Source: a virus. From it: a DNA stretch of 20,955 bases. The first letter of the stretch is position 1. Every line of letters starts with the position of its first letter. Where the stretch lies: IMG/VR virus record IMGVR_UViG_3300043419_000119, positions 1 through 20,955 of that record. One strand, written 5' to 3'. The notes below the pieces were generated by a model, which made no database searches, had not been told where the DNA came from, and saw only the letters and a program-made list of their open reading frames with translations. Position numbers and translations under genes: made by a program. This document shows, piece after piece, positions 2,248 through 7,878 of the stretch.

Positions 2248-2282
2248 AAAAGCGCATTCTACAACGAGTGCGCTATTTTTTG
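2248..2282 (+). terminator. Terminator after the 52-aa gene
   Basis: Stem AGCGCA (2251-2256) with TGCGCT (2269-2274), 12-nt loop, then A and six T residues. It ends the early rightward unit just before the late-type box at 2289. This separates the early gene from the metabolic cassette and rules out the GTG at 2268 as a start for the oxidoreductase. Confidence 0.75.
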
Positions 2283-2288
2283 TTTATC

Positions 2289-2296
2289 ATAAATAC
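2289..2296 (+). promoter_or_regulatory. Late-type promoter box ATAAATAC (metabolic cassette)
   Basis: CATAAATAC occurs directly after the terminator, with no -35 hexamer at the expected distance. Predicted start is near 2301, leaving an 18-nt leader that contains AAAAGGAA ahead of the ATG at 2319. It is the only member of this box family on the plus strand in the window. Confidence 0.55.
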
Positions 2297-2318
2297 AAGA
2301 CAGCAAAAGGAACTTAAA

Positions 2319-3188
2319 ATGAAATACAGCCTAGTAGTAGGACTTGGTAATTTTGGCCGAGTCTACAAAACAATCTTAGAACAAATGAAACACCGTGTTT
2401 ACACAGTGGACCCTTATAACGCGAGTGCAGATTTTAGCAGTATTGCAGAAACTATAAACATAGAATTTGAAACAGCACACATCTGCACTCCAAATTACAG
2501 TCATTATGCACTAGCACGCCAGGCCGCAGTAAACAGTCGAATCGTTTTTGTAGAAAAGCCTGGATTCGAAAGCGCAGAACATTGGTCAAGCATACAAGAT
2601 GAGTTTCCCGGGACTCGTTTTACAATGACCAAAAATAATCAATATAGAAGCAACATAAAAGAATTAAAACAACTTGCCCGCGAGTGCAAGAACATTCACT
2701 TGCATTGGATTAACTATGACAGAGTTCCAGGTCCAGGCAGTTGGTTCACTAACCAAGATCTCGCATTTGGAGGCGTTAGCAAAGATTTGGCTCCCCATAT
2801 GTTTAGTCTTGTTGCAGTGTTAGAACCTAACTATAAAAATATCGCGTGGAGCAATCCAATTACATTTAGAAATTGGCGCTTGAATGATCTCACAACAACT
2901 GCCTATGGCCAGATAAACGAAAAGGGTGTCTACGATGTGGATGATCGTTTTGAAATCTCGGGCACTTTAAATCGACAGCGACAGTATCATGTTCGCACAG
3001 ATTGGCGTAGCATGACACACACAGATGTAGGCATACATTTTGGTGAGCATTTTGTAGAACTGGGATTGTGTCCAGAAGATGCTTATGTTAAAATGATTGA
3101 CACAGCCATGCAAAATTTTGATAATCAAGCATTTTGGAATGAACAAAGAGCACAAGACCAATGGATACAAAAACTCATAACAATCTAA
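2319..3188 (+). CDS. Gfo/Idh/MocA-family NAD(P)-dependent oxidoreductase
   Basis: The 289-residue protein starts with a Rossmann strand and G-x-G-x-x-G motif (VGLGNFG, residues 7-13). It continues with the family signature CTPNYSHYALA (56-66) and the EKP motif (E79-K80-P81) whose lysine is catalytic in this family. The substrate domain has GGVSKDLAPH (D156, H160). Relatives oxidise or reduce sugars, inositol or nucleotide sugars. The substrate cannot be read here. The start at 2319 is supported by AAAAGGAA, and the upstream extension of the frame is a terminator stem. It overlaps the dehydrogenase gene by 28 nt, so the two are probably coupled in one pathway. Confidence 0.88.
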   Translation: MKYSLVVGLGNFGRVYKTILEQMKHRVYTVDPYNASADFSSIAETINIEFETAHICTPNYSHYALARQAAVNSRIVFVEKPGFESAEHWSSIQDEFPGTRFTMTKNNQYRSNIKELKQLARECKNIHLHWINYDRVPGPGSWFTNQDLAFGGVSKDLAPHMFSLVAVLEPNYKNIAWSNPITFRNWRLNDLTTTAYGQINEKGVYDVDDRFEISGTLNRQRQYHVRTDWRSMTHTDVGIHFGEHFVELGLCPEDAYVKMIDTAMQNFDNQAFWNEQRAQDQWIQKLITI

Positions 3189-4063
3189 CAGTTTTATACA
3201 CTAGTGGACAAGGCCATTTTGAACAACGGCCTTGGCAATGTCCTAATCCCAAACACGATGAGATTCGTGTTGCTAGTGTTTACACTGGAGTTTGTCGCAG
3301 TGACATAGACATGATGCAGGGCAATTTTGGACCTTTGCCTATACATATGATGGGTCACGAAGGTGTTGCAGAAGTTATAGAACTAGGCGTCAGTGTCACA
3401 GATGTTAAAATTGGAGACTATGTTGCCACTAGAGGCGAGCCCGCTTATGCAGAACAGTATTGTGTTCGCAGTAAAGAATATGTAAAGATTCCTGAGTGCG
3501 ATCCAAAATACATTTTAGAGCCCGTGGCTTGTGGTATTAACTGCATTACACAAAATCTAGACTTAATCAAATCTAAACAACGAGGAAGAATGTTAATAAA
3601 CGGCACGGGCTTCTTGGCTCGTGTTATTGACCAAACCCTTAGGAACTTAGACTTAACATTTGAAATAGAAGTCCTAGGCACACATAATCAAGAATACTGG
3701 GGTTCACTACTTGTTAAACAAGCACGAGGCCATTATGATGTCGTCATTGATCTCAGTGCAAGAGACTTAGTTAATCAAGACATATTTGCCGCTAATGCAG
3801 TCTATGTCTATGCTAGTCAAAAGACCATGACCACAGATCTGCGTTACTTGCTTTGGAATGCAGTTACAGTAATTTGCCCTAGTCCTAGAACAGATAACTT
3901 TTATTCAGCAATGTTATTGGCCCGTGACTGGGTGCAAGCAAATAGTCTAGATGTCCAGGACTTTTGGACTCAAGCATACACAAGAGAGAATTTTCAAGAG
4001 GCCTTTTCTGATGGCCTAAATAGAAGCAACAATTACTCAAGAGGATATATCAAATGGCGTTAA
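3161..4063 (+). CDS. Zinc-dependent medium-chain alcohol dehydrogenase-like protein
   Basis: The 300-residue protein has the MDR layout: GVCRSDID with the catalytic zinc cysteine C45, GHEG with H66 and E67, IGDYV at 84-88, and the fourth-ligand region LEPVACG around E120. The nucleotide-binding loop is degenerate (NGTGFLARV at 147-155), and the four-cysteine structural zinc lobe of classical alcohol dehydrogenases is missing. It is somewhat shorter than typical members (about 340-360 residues). In bacteria, MDR and Gfo/Idh enzymes are found together, sometimes fused, in polysaccharide or nucleotide-sugar clusters. That and the overlaps on both sides suggest a shared carbohydrate pathway. Confidence 0.85.
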   Translation: MDTKTHNNLTVLYTSGQGHFEQRPWQCPNPKHDEIRVASVYTGVCRSDIDMMQGNFGPLPIHMMGHEGVAEVIELGVSVTDVKIGDYVATRGEPAYAEQYCVRSKEYVKIPECDPKYILEPVACGINCITQNLDLIKSKQRGRMLINGTGFLARVIDQTLRNLDLTFEIEVLGTHNQEYWGSLLVKQARGHYDVVIDLSARDLVNQDIFAANAVYVYASQKTMTTDLRYLLWNAVTVICPSPRTDNFYSAMLLARDWVQANSLDVQDFWTQAYTRENFQEAFSDGLNRSNNYSRGYIKWR

Positions 4064-4548
4064 GCACAGAACAAAGACAGCAAATCAAATACTTTACCGG
4101 AACAGAAGTAGAGCACACAGATATGTTGGGTGCTAAAACATTGTTTGTGGTCAGTGTGCAACCAGTTAAAGAAATCATCCGACAAGCCCAAGACTGCCAG
4201 CACATTTATCTAGGCACTAGTCAAAGTTTTCCTGGACAGCACAGTATGAAGGAATGGACGCTAATGATTGAACAATTATTGTCTTGGGGTTACACAGTTA
4301 CCCTGGACTATGATTGCCAATATGCAGAACAAGTTACAAAACAAACCTGGAGCCAACATGCTAACTTTGTCAACATGGTCAGTGTATGCTTGCCTTACAT
4401 TGAAAAAATGTCCGCAAGAACATTCATCAAACTAGATGATCAAACATGGGGTGCTACCAATCCAGGAGTATGGGTGCATAAGTTGCGGGATCTCAAAGAT
4501 TACTCTGTGTTCACTGGTTGGAATGAATATCAACAAGACGGTGAATAA
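4054..4548 (+). CDS. Unknown protein of the metabolic cassette, 164 aa
   Basis: The start overlaps the dehydrogenase stop by 10 nt, so it is the third coupled cistron, and a bidirectional terminator follows immediately. The protein is soluble with an alpha/beta look: a strand such as KTLFVVSVQP, then HIYLGTSQSF, then a helix and GYTVTLDYDC. The C-terminal part carries FIKLDDQTWGATNPGVW, which looks conserved or functional because of its Asp, Asn and Trp residues. I do not recognise the family. By context it should act with the two oxidoreductases, perhaps as a partner or next enzyme, but no reaction can be assigned. Confidence 0.75.
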   Translation: MALSTEQRQQIKYFTGTEVEHTDMLGAKTLFVVSVQPVKEIIRQAQDCQHIYLGTSQSFPGQHSMKEWTLMIEQLLSWGYTVTLDYDCQYAEQVTKQTWSQHANFVNMVSVCLPYIEKMSARTFIKLDDQTWGATNPGVWVHKLRDLKDYSVFTGWNEYQQDGE

Positions 4549-5393: not shown

Positions 5394-6437
5394 TCAATAT
5401 ATAATTCTCACACAATCAAATTCAACTGAATATCCAGTTCTCTTTTTCACTGCTAATCTCAAATCATACTCATTGACATGACTATCACATCTCCACCCAT
5501 CATGCTCTAAGAAATACCTCACAGATAACTTATTCAGTTCAGTTCTAACTACATTCATCACACTTCGCTCTAGTTCGAAGTAAATCATCCACTTATCACG
5601 ACTGCGTAATCTCAATGACTTCTCTGAACTCTTTATGGCATCCCAACATTTCTTGATGTCTTTGCGTAGTTCTTTGATCCAAGTGTTGTTCTTTAAGATT
5701 GCGAGTTTAGCCATGTCATTGTTCAATACATCAGCAATGGCATTGCCTGGACCTAACTTAGCACCACTGAACAATGCTGTGATTATCTGTTTGGCTTGTT
5801 GCTCAGTGCAGTCAAGTCGTTCTGACAGGGCTTGTCTGTATAACTGACGATCTTCTAAAAATGCTGTCAGTGTGGGTGTAGGACGAGTCATGCCCTCATT
5901 GCGAGCCTTTTGGTATATCAGTGTAGGCGCACAAGCACGGATGTCATACTCCCAATGATAACCTTGTTCAGCAAACAATGGTCTGCGGATTTCTGTGGGC
6001 AAGCGTTGAATGTCATTCCAAAGGCGATTTGACTTGTCCTTGTATTCAAATACACCACTTTGGATTTGTGTGCCGTATTGCTCTTTGGCCCAAGCAATAC
6101 CCGTATTTTGGACTATTTCTTGGACTTGTGCTACACTAGGGAATTTAACTATATTAACAACATTATATAATTCTTGCAAAGCCAACACACCCTCAATGTT
6201 CAGTGTGTATTGCTTGCATAGCCCTTGATCCATGCTGTATCTATCTGAGTCTTTGACTAATAACTTTGACCTCAGCCACTTACTCAAGTCATGATTCTGT
6301 GTTCCAAAATGACGATCTAGTTCTACGCGAGCCCAAGCACGACCTTTGTTCTCACTGAGACTTGAACAAGCAAATCCCAAGGCTCTACGGATTCTCTTTT
6401 TGACTCTAGGATCATTGAGGTTAGGAGTATAAGTCAT
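5394..6437 (-). CDS. Putative polymerase-palm-like protein, 347 aa
   Basis: The ATG at 6437 overlaps the upstream stop as ATGA and has AAGGAG 9 nt before it; a TTG at 6443 is less likely. Three spaced motifs recall A-family DNA polymerases and T7-like RNA polymerases. YDIRACAPTLI (D165) fits motif A. KQIITALFSGA (K216) has the K-x5-L-x2-G spacing of motif B. LEHDGWRCDS (H312-D313-G314) fits motif C. At 347 residues it is much shorter than those enzymes and lacks obvious exonuclease domains. It may be a replication primase/polymerase or a decayed relative. This is motif-level inference. It is the last gene of a three-gene operon; codons for IVKFPSVAQVQ are duplicated downstream. Confidence 0.55.
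   Translation of the reverse strand: MTYTPNLNDPRVKKRIRRALGFACSSLSENKGRAWARVELDRHFGTQNHDLSKWLRSKLLVKDSDRYSMDQGLCKQYTLNIEGVLALQELYNVVNIVKFPSVAQVQEIVQNTGIAWAKEQYGTQIQSGVFEYKDKSNRLWNDIQRLPTEIRRPLFAEQGYHWEYDIRACAPTLIYQKARNEGMTRPTPTLTAFLEDRQLYRQALSERLDCTEQQAKQIITALFSGAKLGPGNAIADVLNNDMAKLAILKNNTWIKELRKDIKKCWDAIKSSEKSLRLRSRDKWMIYFELERSVMNVVRTELNKLSVRYFLEHDGWRCDSHVNEYDLRLAVKKRTGYSVEFDCVRIIY
6120..6152. repeat. 33-bp direct repeat, copy B (inside the palm-like gene)
   Basis: Exact match to 5355-5387. Here it is in frame as part of the palm-like gene, so this copy is probably the ancestral one. Confidence 0.9.
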
Positions 6438-6661
6438 AGCCAAATTCTCCTTTGTTGTTTAGGAGTGTTAGGGCTTTTCATTCTATGCGAACTAATTTTG
6501 ACACCTAACTTCTTAATTTCTTCTACATCTGATTTGTGTAGCCATTGGATGTGCTTGTTGCAGTCTTTACATCTAAGACTAGCATAATGATTAATCAATG
6601 TGTAGTATTCCATTTGAACATAGACTTCATGGCTGTCGTGATCAGTGATTCGAGTAATCAT
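6434..6661 (-). CDS. Small CxxC protein, 75 aa
   Basis: This basic 75-residue protein contains CKDCNKHIQWL (CxxC near the middle), plus histidines that could complete a zinc site. The motif, a CxxC followed by a hydrophobic WL and a charged helix, is seen in small phage proteins of unknown role that often lie near replication genes. Both ends overlap neighbours by ATGA (start at 6661, stop at 6434), so it is translationally coupled to the 54-aa gene before it and the palm-like gene after it. A nucleic-acid-binding accessory role is plausible but unproven. Confidence 0.7.
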   Translation of the reverse strand: MITRITDHDSHEVYVQMEYYTLINHYASLRCKDCNKHIQWLHKSDVEEIKKLGVKISSHRMKSPNTPKQQRRIWL

Positions 6662-6822
6662 TTGCTCTCCAATGCATCTGCTATGCGTTTAAGTTGCCAA
6701 CTGATACTGCTGAGTTGACGCACAATAGTATTGTAATCTTCTTGAGGTTCTTGCTTGGGGGTTAAAAAGTCTCGGGCTTCTGCATTATTTTGTGCGGCCA
6801 GGAATTCTTTAAGTTTTGACAT
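6658..6822 (-). CDS. Small helical protein, 54 aa, first gene of the operon
   Basis: The ATG at 6822 has a strong GGAG ribosome site 6 nt ahead and the frame ends in an ATGA overlap with the CxxC gene. The 54 residues include an acidic linker (PKQEPQEDYN) and a C-terminal amphipathic helix (IVRQLSSISWQLKRIADAL), suggesting oligomerisation through a coiled coil. No family is recognised. It is promoter-proximal behind the late-type box at 6865-6872 and a hairpin leader. Confidence 0.7.
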   Translation of the reverse strand: MSKLKEFLAAQNNAEARDFLTPKQEPQEDYNTIVRQLSSISWQLKRIADALESK

Positions 6823-6839
6823 TGTATTCTCCAATTATG

Positions 6840-6863
6840 TTACACGGGCTGTCGTTCGTGTAA
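6840..6863 (-). promoter_or_regulatory. Leader hairpin of the 54-aa gene operon
   Basis: A perfect 7-bp inverted repeat, TTACACG (6863-6857 leftward) with CGTGTAA (6846-6840), and a 10-nt loop. It lies at the very 5' end of the transcript predicted from the box at 6865-6872 and ends 11 nt before the GGAG ribosome site. It could stabilise the mRNA or serve as a protein site. Confidence 0.5.
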
Positions 6864-6864
6864 T

Positions 6865-6872
6865 GTATTTAG
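6865..6872 (-). promoter_or_regulatory. Late-type promoter box CTAAATAC (palm-protein operon)
   Basis: The 11-mer ACTAAATACAT here is identical to that at the box at 20242-20249. The predicted start is near 6860, so the mRNA would begin in the hairpin at 6840-6863. Confidence 0.5.
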
Positions 6873-6906
6873 TGTAGCACAAATAAAACGGGTGTCAAAT
6901 TGAATC

Positions 6907-6979
6907 TTACCAAATATCATTTTGGTAATGACTGGTTTGGCATTTGGATAAGTGTTTTTTCGCTAGGCCAGTCATTACC
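6907..6979. repeat. Competing hairpins between the ncRNA and the next operon
   Basis: TTACCAAA (6907-6914) pairs with TTTGGTAA (6921-6928). The same central segment, GGTAATGACTGG (6924-6935), pairs perfectly over 12 bp with CCAGTCATTACC (6968-6979) across a 32-nt loop. The two helices are mutually exclusive, as in an attenuator, or the repeats may be protein sites on DNA. No gene is seen in 6873-6990. Confidence 0.7.
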
Positions 6980-6990
6980 GAAATATAGCC

Positions 6991-7026
6991 AAAAAAAAAA
7001 GCCCCGGTCTTTTGGACTAGGGCTTT
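6991..7026 (-). terminator. Strong terminator of the structured ncRNA
   Basis: Leftward, AAAGCCC (7026-7020) pairs with GGGCTTT (7004-6998), then after one mismatch a further 4-bp helix closes the loop. The stem is followed by an uninterrupted run of ten T residues. This T-run exists only for leftward transcription, which fixes the strand of the ncRNA. Confidence 0.85.
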
Positions 7027-7194
7027 AAACAGCGTTGCACTGTTTTACTTGTTTCTACTATGACAAAGTCCTTGGTGACAGCCTAGGAGAAATAACAACG
7101 GAACTAGAAACAAGTTGCGGGCAGTATTGTGAGGAACCACTATGGCGTGTGGAAGGTTTCTTTTGAGTAATAAAGGAAAGCCCTTACTGCCCGC
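6991..7194 (-). ncRNA. Novel structured phage ncRNA of about 200 nt
   Basis: No coding frame is supported on either strand, yet the interval folds into consecutive helices. P1 is a perfect 11-bp pair (7185-7195 with 7116-7126) enclosing 58 nt, with CCAC/GTGG inside. P2 is a perfect 11-bp pair (7105-7115 with 7047-7057) that abuts P1 with no spacer and holds an inner TCCT-a-GG/CC-a-AGGA hairpin. P3 is AAACAG/CTGTTT (7027-7032 with 7040-7045). The terminator is last. The start predicted from the box at 7199-7206 is about 7194, inside the first arm of P1. It matches no RNA class I recognise: no tRNA T-loop and no tmRNA features. Function is unknown. Confidence 0.75.
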
Positions 7195-7198
7195 ACAA

Positions 7199-7206
7199 TT
7201 ATTTAT
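7199..7206 (-). promoter_or_regulatory. Late-type promoter box ATAAATAA (ncRNA)
   Basis: Reading leftward: GTGATAAATAATTGTGCGGG. With T4-type spacing the start falls at G7194, the second base of the P1 stem. It lies between the stop of the upstream gene at 7222 and the ncRNA. Confidence 0.55.
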
Positions 7207-7221
7207 CACTGACAAAAAACA

Positions 7222-7878
7222 TCAGGGAGATTTAGGCACAAACACACGGGTAATTGAATCCTCAGTTTCGTGTGTTACCCAATGACCTTCATTGATGATT
7301 TTTTCTACCAATTGGCTTTTGGTTAATTTACTAGGTGCTCGTTGCCTAGTTGCTTTTGGTGCAGTTTCTTTGTCCAACTTGGGCTGATACTTGCTTTTAT
7401 ACTTGCCTAGTTTGGGTTTGTAGAACTGCGTGAAGTATTGGTGGCTGACTTCTTTGTTTACTGTAAACAAGCCAGTCAATGGATCTTTGAAATGCTCACA
7501 GACTTCACAGTATTCGCGCCAATGACGCCCGCCACTTTCGTGTAGTTTACGCTGTGTTCTACGACCTTGTGGACAATGACGCCCGCAGTCATCACAGTCA
7601 CGGGCTTGGACCTTAACTTTTAGTATTTCTGGAGGCACACTTTCATTGGGCTGTGCTTCACGCCAAGCCATTAAACGGTCATAGTAGCGTTTGACTTCTG
7701 AGTCCGTCATTTCTTCTAGTTCTTGTTCTGTGATTACGCCTGGATGTTCAATGCTTTTGGCTTTGGCACCTTTGACCACTGAATAACAACCATTAGGACC
7801 TGTTTGTGGTCTATGCCATTCTGAAACTTCTGAGAGTCGTTTGAGGAATTCTTTTTCGTTCATAACACTATCTATCAT
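7222..7878 (-). CDS. Zinc-ribbon-like hypothetical protein, 218 aa
   Basis: The middle of the protein carries two paired-cysteine knuckles, CDDCGRHC (C95, C98, C102) and CEVC (C124, C127), separated by a basic, His-rich segment. This arrangement suggests a zinc ribbon or a diverged HNH-type domain. The C-terminal third is highly basic (YKPKLGKYKSKYQPKLDK), fitting nucleic-acid binding. The start is uncertain: ATGs at 7878 and 7863 both lack a clear Shine-Dalgarno. It follows a terminator at 7955-7977, and the ncRNA promoter comes 15 nt after its stop. No precise function is assigned. Confidence 0.7.
   Translation of the reverse strand: MIDSVMNEKEFLKRLSEVSEWHRPQTGPNGCYSVVKGAKAKSIEHPGVITEQELEEMTDSEVKRYYDRLMAWREAQPNESVPPEILKVKVQARDCDDCGRHCPQGRRTQRKLHESGGRHWREYCEVCEHFKDPLTGLFTVNKEVSHQYFTQFYKPKLGKYKSKYQPKLDKETAPKATRQRAPSKLTKSQLVEKIINEGHWVTHETEDSITRVFVPKSP

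Follow-up and report, generated by a model that had tools for sequence, protein, structure and literature searches.

A conserved family of structured phage RNAs upstream of a DNA polymerase operon, with complementarity to the operon start and a possible antisense role

The C4 RNA and its target are encoded on one strand, with the RNA upstream, and the sar RNA is encoded opposite its target. In the C4 RNA of phages P1 and P7, which is about 77 nt long and processed by RNase P, one loop is reported to cover the ribosome-binding site and another to bind an upstream sequence for specificity (PMC5320573). On plasmids, RNAII of pMV158 inhibits the translation of repB (PMC4485353). The sar RNA of P22 and the OOP RNA of lambda are phage antisense RNAs directed at early regulatory mRNAs, and the lambda PreS RNA is a small phage RNA with an effect on DNA replication (PMC12197685). 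In a limited term search of that recent review, no mention was found of a phage small RNA acting on phage DNA polymerase or replication genes.

The window analysed here is the whole 20,955-base stretch of a virus record (IMGVR_UViG_3300043419_000119), in which an RNA element is located where the structural genes end, with tail genes on one side, directly upstream of a replication operon and on the same strand. Judging from predicted structure and complementarity, it is reasonably likely that this RNA exerts antisense control on the phage's own replication (DNA polymerase) operon. It would probably work like C4 RNA and the plasmid copy-control RNAs while being a member of neither group. Like C4, it is a structured RNA encoded by a phage, upstream of its proposed target and in the same orientation, and the pairing blocks predicted here would resemble the two-loop antisense pairing reported for C4. 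In contrast to C4, it is about 205 nt long with a separate predicted late-type box and its own terminator, and its proposed target is a replication/DNA polymerase operon, whereas the C4 target is an antirepressor. The Rfam C4 model (RF01695) gave no gathering-score match in the window or in 16 relatives, and none up to an E value of 5 within 6850-7330. RNAII of pMV158 and CopA of R1 are likewise small structured RNAs inhibiting the translation of replication genes, but both are opposite-strand countertranscripts with full complementarity, whereas the RNA here shares a strand with its proposed target, lies upstream of it and is partially complementary to it. With a DNA polymerase operon as its proposed target, it differs from sar and OOP, which are encoded opposite ant and cII, respectively, and the operon on which it appears to act belongs to the phage, whereas the PreS target is the host dnaN message, with Hfq taking part.

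The minus strand from 7206 to 6991 folded at -67.4 kcal/mol, compared with -45.5 +/- 4.6 kcal/mol for 200 shuffled sequences (z -4.82), none of which folded as well. An earlier note, made from the letters alone, had described two abutting perfect 11-bp helices (P1 and P2), a third hairpin of 6 bp (P3) and a terminator with a 10-T run; all of these were recovered where the note had placed them, and P1 and P2 in the window phage each reached p 0.010 in the shuffle control, which is the floor of the test for P1 (Table 1). The absence of a coding frame also held, with no ORF of at least 60 aa on the minus strand between 6661 and 7222. The note had recognised no RNA family, and the Rfam covariance-model search returned no match at the gathering score in the window or in the RNAs of 16 relatives; the best sub-threshold match was NsiR1 (26.6 bits, with 39 needed), driven mainly by the terminator. 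No match was obtained in a tRNA search over the interval or in a sequence similarity search of the RNA against an annotated phage collection. A plus-strand peptide (RBS-ATGGC at 7142) was rejected, since two relatives, L027 and L021, read ATG GCG TAG there (by eye).

Table 1. Features of the RNA element and of the operon behind it, in window positions.
Feature	Position	Strand	Basis
ATAAATAA box, predicted phage late-type promoter (T4-like TATAAATA); predicted start 7194-7195	7199-7206	-	sequence; box-then-P1 layout in relatives; enrichment before genes
Predicted ncRNA, about 205 nt	6991-7195	-	fold (z -4.82); family in related phages
P1 5' arm	7185-7195	-	fold, shuffle controls, pair table over relatives
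Hairpin within P1, loop ACGCCAUA	7137-7152	-	fold; GCCAU complementary to AUGGC
UUCCUC single strand, anti-Shine-Dalgarno-like	7131-7136	-	TCCTT enrichment in RNA set
P1 3' arm	7116-7126	-	fold, shuffle controls, pair table over relatives
P2 5' arm	7105-7115	-	fold, shuffle controls
Candidate antisense segment within P2, CCGUUGUUAUUUCUCCUAGGCUGUC	7077-7101	-	three-block pairing with 6819-6852, -19.6 kcal/mol
P2 3' arm	7047-7057	-	fold, shuffle controls
P3 hairpin AAACAG-UGCAACG-CUGUUU, 6 bp, loop type YGCAAYG	7027-7045	-	fold; hairpin counts in RNAs and elsewhere
Intrinsic terminator: stem 7001-7026, then 10 T at 7000-6991	6991-7026	-	sequence, fold
Predicted sigma-70 promoter of downstream operon, TTGACA-16-TACACT with TG	6871-6898	-	sequence
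Leader hairpin TTACACG-AACGACAGCC-CGTGTAA, loop complementary to RNA GGCUGUC	6840-6863	-	sequence
Predicted target: leader loop, Shine-Dalgarno GGAGAA (6827-6832) and start codon (6820-6822)	6819-6852	-	pairing prediction
54-aa ORF, first of downstream operon, function unknown	6658-6822	-	
75-aa ORF, weak DUF5651 match	6434-6661	-	
349-aa compact family-A DNA polymerase-like protein	5394-6443	-	AlphaFold2 model, structure matches

The box that the note had placed ahead of P1 is present, and a promoter and a transcript are predicted from it. In the related phages, 59% of ATAAATA boxes lay at most 120 nt upstream of a gene start, compared with 15-26% for control words; the median distance to the gene start was 31 nt, and no -35 element was found before the boxes. 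Since they are enriched before genes and lack a -35 element, the boxes look like T4 late promoters, and they may be used late. Further ATAAATA boxes precede window genes at 1006, 5301 and 8679 on the minus strand and at 2289 on the plus strand, in a genome with siphovirus-type tail genes.

For the 349-aa product of the operon, no clear Pfam or PHROG match was obtained. Its AlphaFold2 model (pLDDT 87.5) found Pol I fragments as the best matches in a PDB structure search (E 2e-4 to 6e-4) and gave a Z of 13.1 against T7 DNA polymerase, and on these structure matches it is most likely a compact family-A DNA polymerase. Its relatives were found in about 100 viral contigs and in bacterial assemblies (a Legionella MAG, Caballeronia and Janthinobacterium), and three queries found none among named phages; its viral structure matches include virophage and Zamilon replication proteins. 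No relatives were found for the 218-aa upstream gene. A 17-nt inverted repeat (94% complementary, arms 32 nt apart, 6919-6984) lies between the RNA terminator and the operon promoter and was not found by eye in the relatives' leaders. Elsewhere in the window, two overlapping oxidoreductase-like genes (Gfo/Idh/MocA and alcohol dehydrogenase N-domain; 2268-4548, plus strand) stand beside an unknown ORF on the opposite strand, and the 2268-4548 set may represent auxiliary metabolic genes.

The viral contigs carrying relatives of the polymerase (L numbers) were taken as relatives, and the region upstream of the polymerase was inspected in them. A recurrent layout was observed, consisting of a TAAATA box, 8-12 nt, a perfect P1, other elements, a terminator and the polymerase operon. 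Because a MAFFT alignment of 16 RNAs left the P1 3' arms unaligned, P1 was assessed by a stem search against control words and shuffles. P1 stems scoring at least 16 followed 10 of the 283 TAAATA sites and none of the 1,093 sites of five control words, words overlapping the box (AATAAT, TATAAA and AAATAA) having been excluded from this count. Over 29 phages, the P1 sequence differs in almost every phage while the pairing is kept, with three to six base-pair types at each of the first ten positions; the table of pair types was built from stems selected as paired, and the statistical weight lies in the comparisons with control words and with shuffles. Between L005 and L006, the flanks are almost the same but the P1 sequences differ, both of them being paired, and the nearest relative (L071, polymerase 60% identical) carries a full P1, an abutting P2, a P3 and a terminator-like hairpin, with different sequences.

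P2 and P3 are confined to subsets of the relatives. P2 was significant against shuffles only in the window phage, L071, L063, L115 and L067, and P3-type hairpins with a YGCAAYG loop numbered eight in the RNAs (1.66 per kb) and two elsewhere (0.005 per kb). The compensatory changes that the earlier note had looked to in homologues were thus present in full for P1 (29 phages) and only in a subset for P2, and its reading of the interval, as a structured ncRNA of the phage that has a box and a terminator to itself, is supported by the recurrence at the equivalent site in at least about 29 related phages. Given this layout and the P1 pairing kept despite sequence change, the RNA is almost certainly a real conserved structured family. 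Under the strict detection rule, no RNA was found in many relatives. In L116 (4785) and L117 (4805), from the bacterial assemblies of Caballeronia and Janthinobacterium, a box and a hairpin or stem of shorter length precede the polymerase relative, with a P3-like hairpin GTACGTGCAACGCGTAC in L116; in L034, a COG2908 RNA (RF02939) at 168-212 directly follows the RNA.

A late-type box, a length of about 200 nt and a terminator would also be expected if the RNA were the short leader, ended by a terminator, of a late transcription unit (compare the 6S RNA of lambda pR'-tR') and had no pairing role, but the compensatory change in P1 and the complementarity to the downstream leader described below make this highly improbable. 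Conservation of the fold with little conservation of sequence, together with the conserved P3 loop, the adjoining family-A polymerase and a weak terminase small subunit match near the RNA, is consistent with a protein-binding structural RNA, for example one for DNA packaging like the phi29 pRNA, or with a replication primer RNA beside the Pol I-like polymerase. We consider such roles very unlikely, as no such Rfam family was matched and the leader complementarity would be left unexplained.

A variant with a P1 of 20-26 bp upstream of the polymerase gene was observed in L066 (2402), L179 (3925) and L185 (4332), in which no terminator was detected and the P1 loop can pair with sequence just 3' of P1 (GTGGTGGC/GCCACCAC in L066 and L185, GCCGCCAC/GTGGCGGC in L179; by eye). 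This variant, and the position of the RNA immediately upstream on the same strand, would fit a cis-acting leader, in which pairing within read-through transcripts from the late promoter silences the replication genes and no free RNA acts in trans. The strong terminator between RNA and target in most members, and the predicted promoter that the window operon has of its own, argue against this explanation, which is regarded as unlikely.

The preferred reading, antisense control of the operon, draws on complementarity between each RNA and the start of the operon behind it, where the first gene is in many relatives the polymerase gene itself. The pairing hypothesis was formed from the first 26 RNAs. 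In the 160 nt 3' of the terminator, a fixed window, pairing scored 11.8 for own sequences and 10.2 for foreign ones (permutation p<5e-5) and gave p 5e-6 against own windows elsewhere in the locus, with a direct-repeat control of p 0.14. In the start region of the first gene (23 phages), own duplexes averaged -18.2 kcal/mol compared with -15.3 kcal/mol for foreign ones (permutation p<2e-5), the comparison with dinucleotide-shuffled RNAs gave p 4e-8 and 7e-8, and the mean rank of this region among the phage's own start regions was 0.29-0.31 (p<=5e-5), four start positions having been hand-corrected in these three tests, a choice that the 160-nt test does not involve. The strongest duplexes were found in L047 (-26.7 kcal/mol), L115 (-25.3), L020 (-23.0), L059 (-22.6) and L027 (-21.6).

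Ten further RNAs, from contigs unused before and with the detection rules fixed, served as a held-out set, in which L223 and L224 are near-identical and hence not independent. The pairing was replicated in two of three tests, with a gapped p of 0.0012 and a permutation p of 0.022 (direct-repeat control 0.82); the ungapped test was not significant (p 0.11). In L223, it is the polymerase gene whose Shine-Dalgarno sequence and start codon are complementary to the RNA.

The anti-Shine-Dalgarno word TCCTT occurred in 13 of 22 RNAs (5.5 expected) and GCCAT, the complement of AUGGC, in 11 of 22 (2.9 expected), which would be expected of a general anti-Shine-Dalgarno RNA that mimics the anti-SD of the ribosome and the initiator anticodon and dampens many phage and host start sites. 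Such an RNA would also account for the duplex energies within the same locus, by which the own first gene was not distinct from the other start regions (p 0.42), and for the result over all start sites of each phage, where the preference for the own genome was not significant (p 0.18). However, the rank test favoured the first downstream gene over other own start sites, own leaders were favoured over foreign ones, and in many RNAs (L115, L047 and L177) the matches run past the Shine-Dalgarno sequence and AUG into phage-specific sequence, so that this explanation is considered doubtful. When whole RNAs were paired with all start sites by duplex energy, the results were long bulged artefacts, and own sites were not preferred. 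The other words enriched in the RNAs were CGCAA/GCAAT, from the P3 loop, and TTGTAG, from the start of P1.

In the window phage, the best predicted pairing consists of three blocks, in which GGCUGU would pair with the loop of the leader hairpin, UUCUCC with the Shine-Dalgarno sequence and CGUUGU with ACAAUG at the start codon. Opening costs of 7.3 kcal/mol for the RNA and 1.6 to 9.0 kcal/mol for the leader reduce the duplex total of -19.6 kcal/mol to a net of about -3 to -11 kcal/mol. Cofolding of the RNA with the leader did not choose this pairing, and in this phage alone it was not significant (shuffle p 0.14-0.16; rank 7-8 of 24). Taken alone, the pairing is suggestive, and the case for an antisense role in the window phage therefore rests on the family.

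For the antisense control preferred here, the following course may be proposed, in which we infer the expression of the RNA, its timing and the sign of its effect (repression). Transcription of the RNA would begin at the phage late-type promoter, where the structural genes end, and stop at the RNA's own terminator. Its rigid helices would present short segments, which would pair with the 5' leader, the Shine-Dalgarno region and the start codon of the operon's first gene. This pairing would block ribosome binding, and the early replication operon would be shut down at late times. The earlier note had mentioned regulation and virion or host-takeover roles as frequent among phage structured RNAs of this size. 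Of these, the pairing evidence favours regulation, through an antisense action on the replication operon, over a virion or host-takeover role.

We give an even chance to the whole proposal, namely that this is a widespread undescribed phage RNA family whose members are antisense RNAs made late, evolve together with the DNA polymerase operon of the same phage and turn it off. A role has been proposed for few phage RNAs of this size. If true, such a circuit would be a copy-number-type control in tailed phages and would couple late transcription directly to the shut-off of replication at the level of translation, with almost every base of the RNA changing between phages while the fold and the target are kept. 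The RNA family provides naturally occurring compensatory variants, ready to be tested, and a conserved marker beside an unannotated polymerase family.
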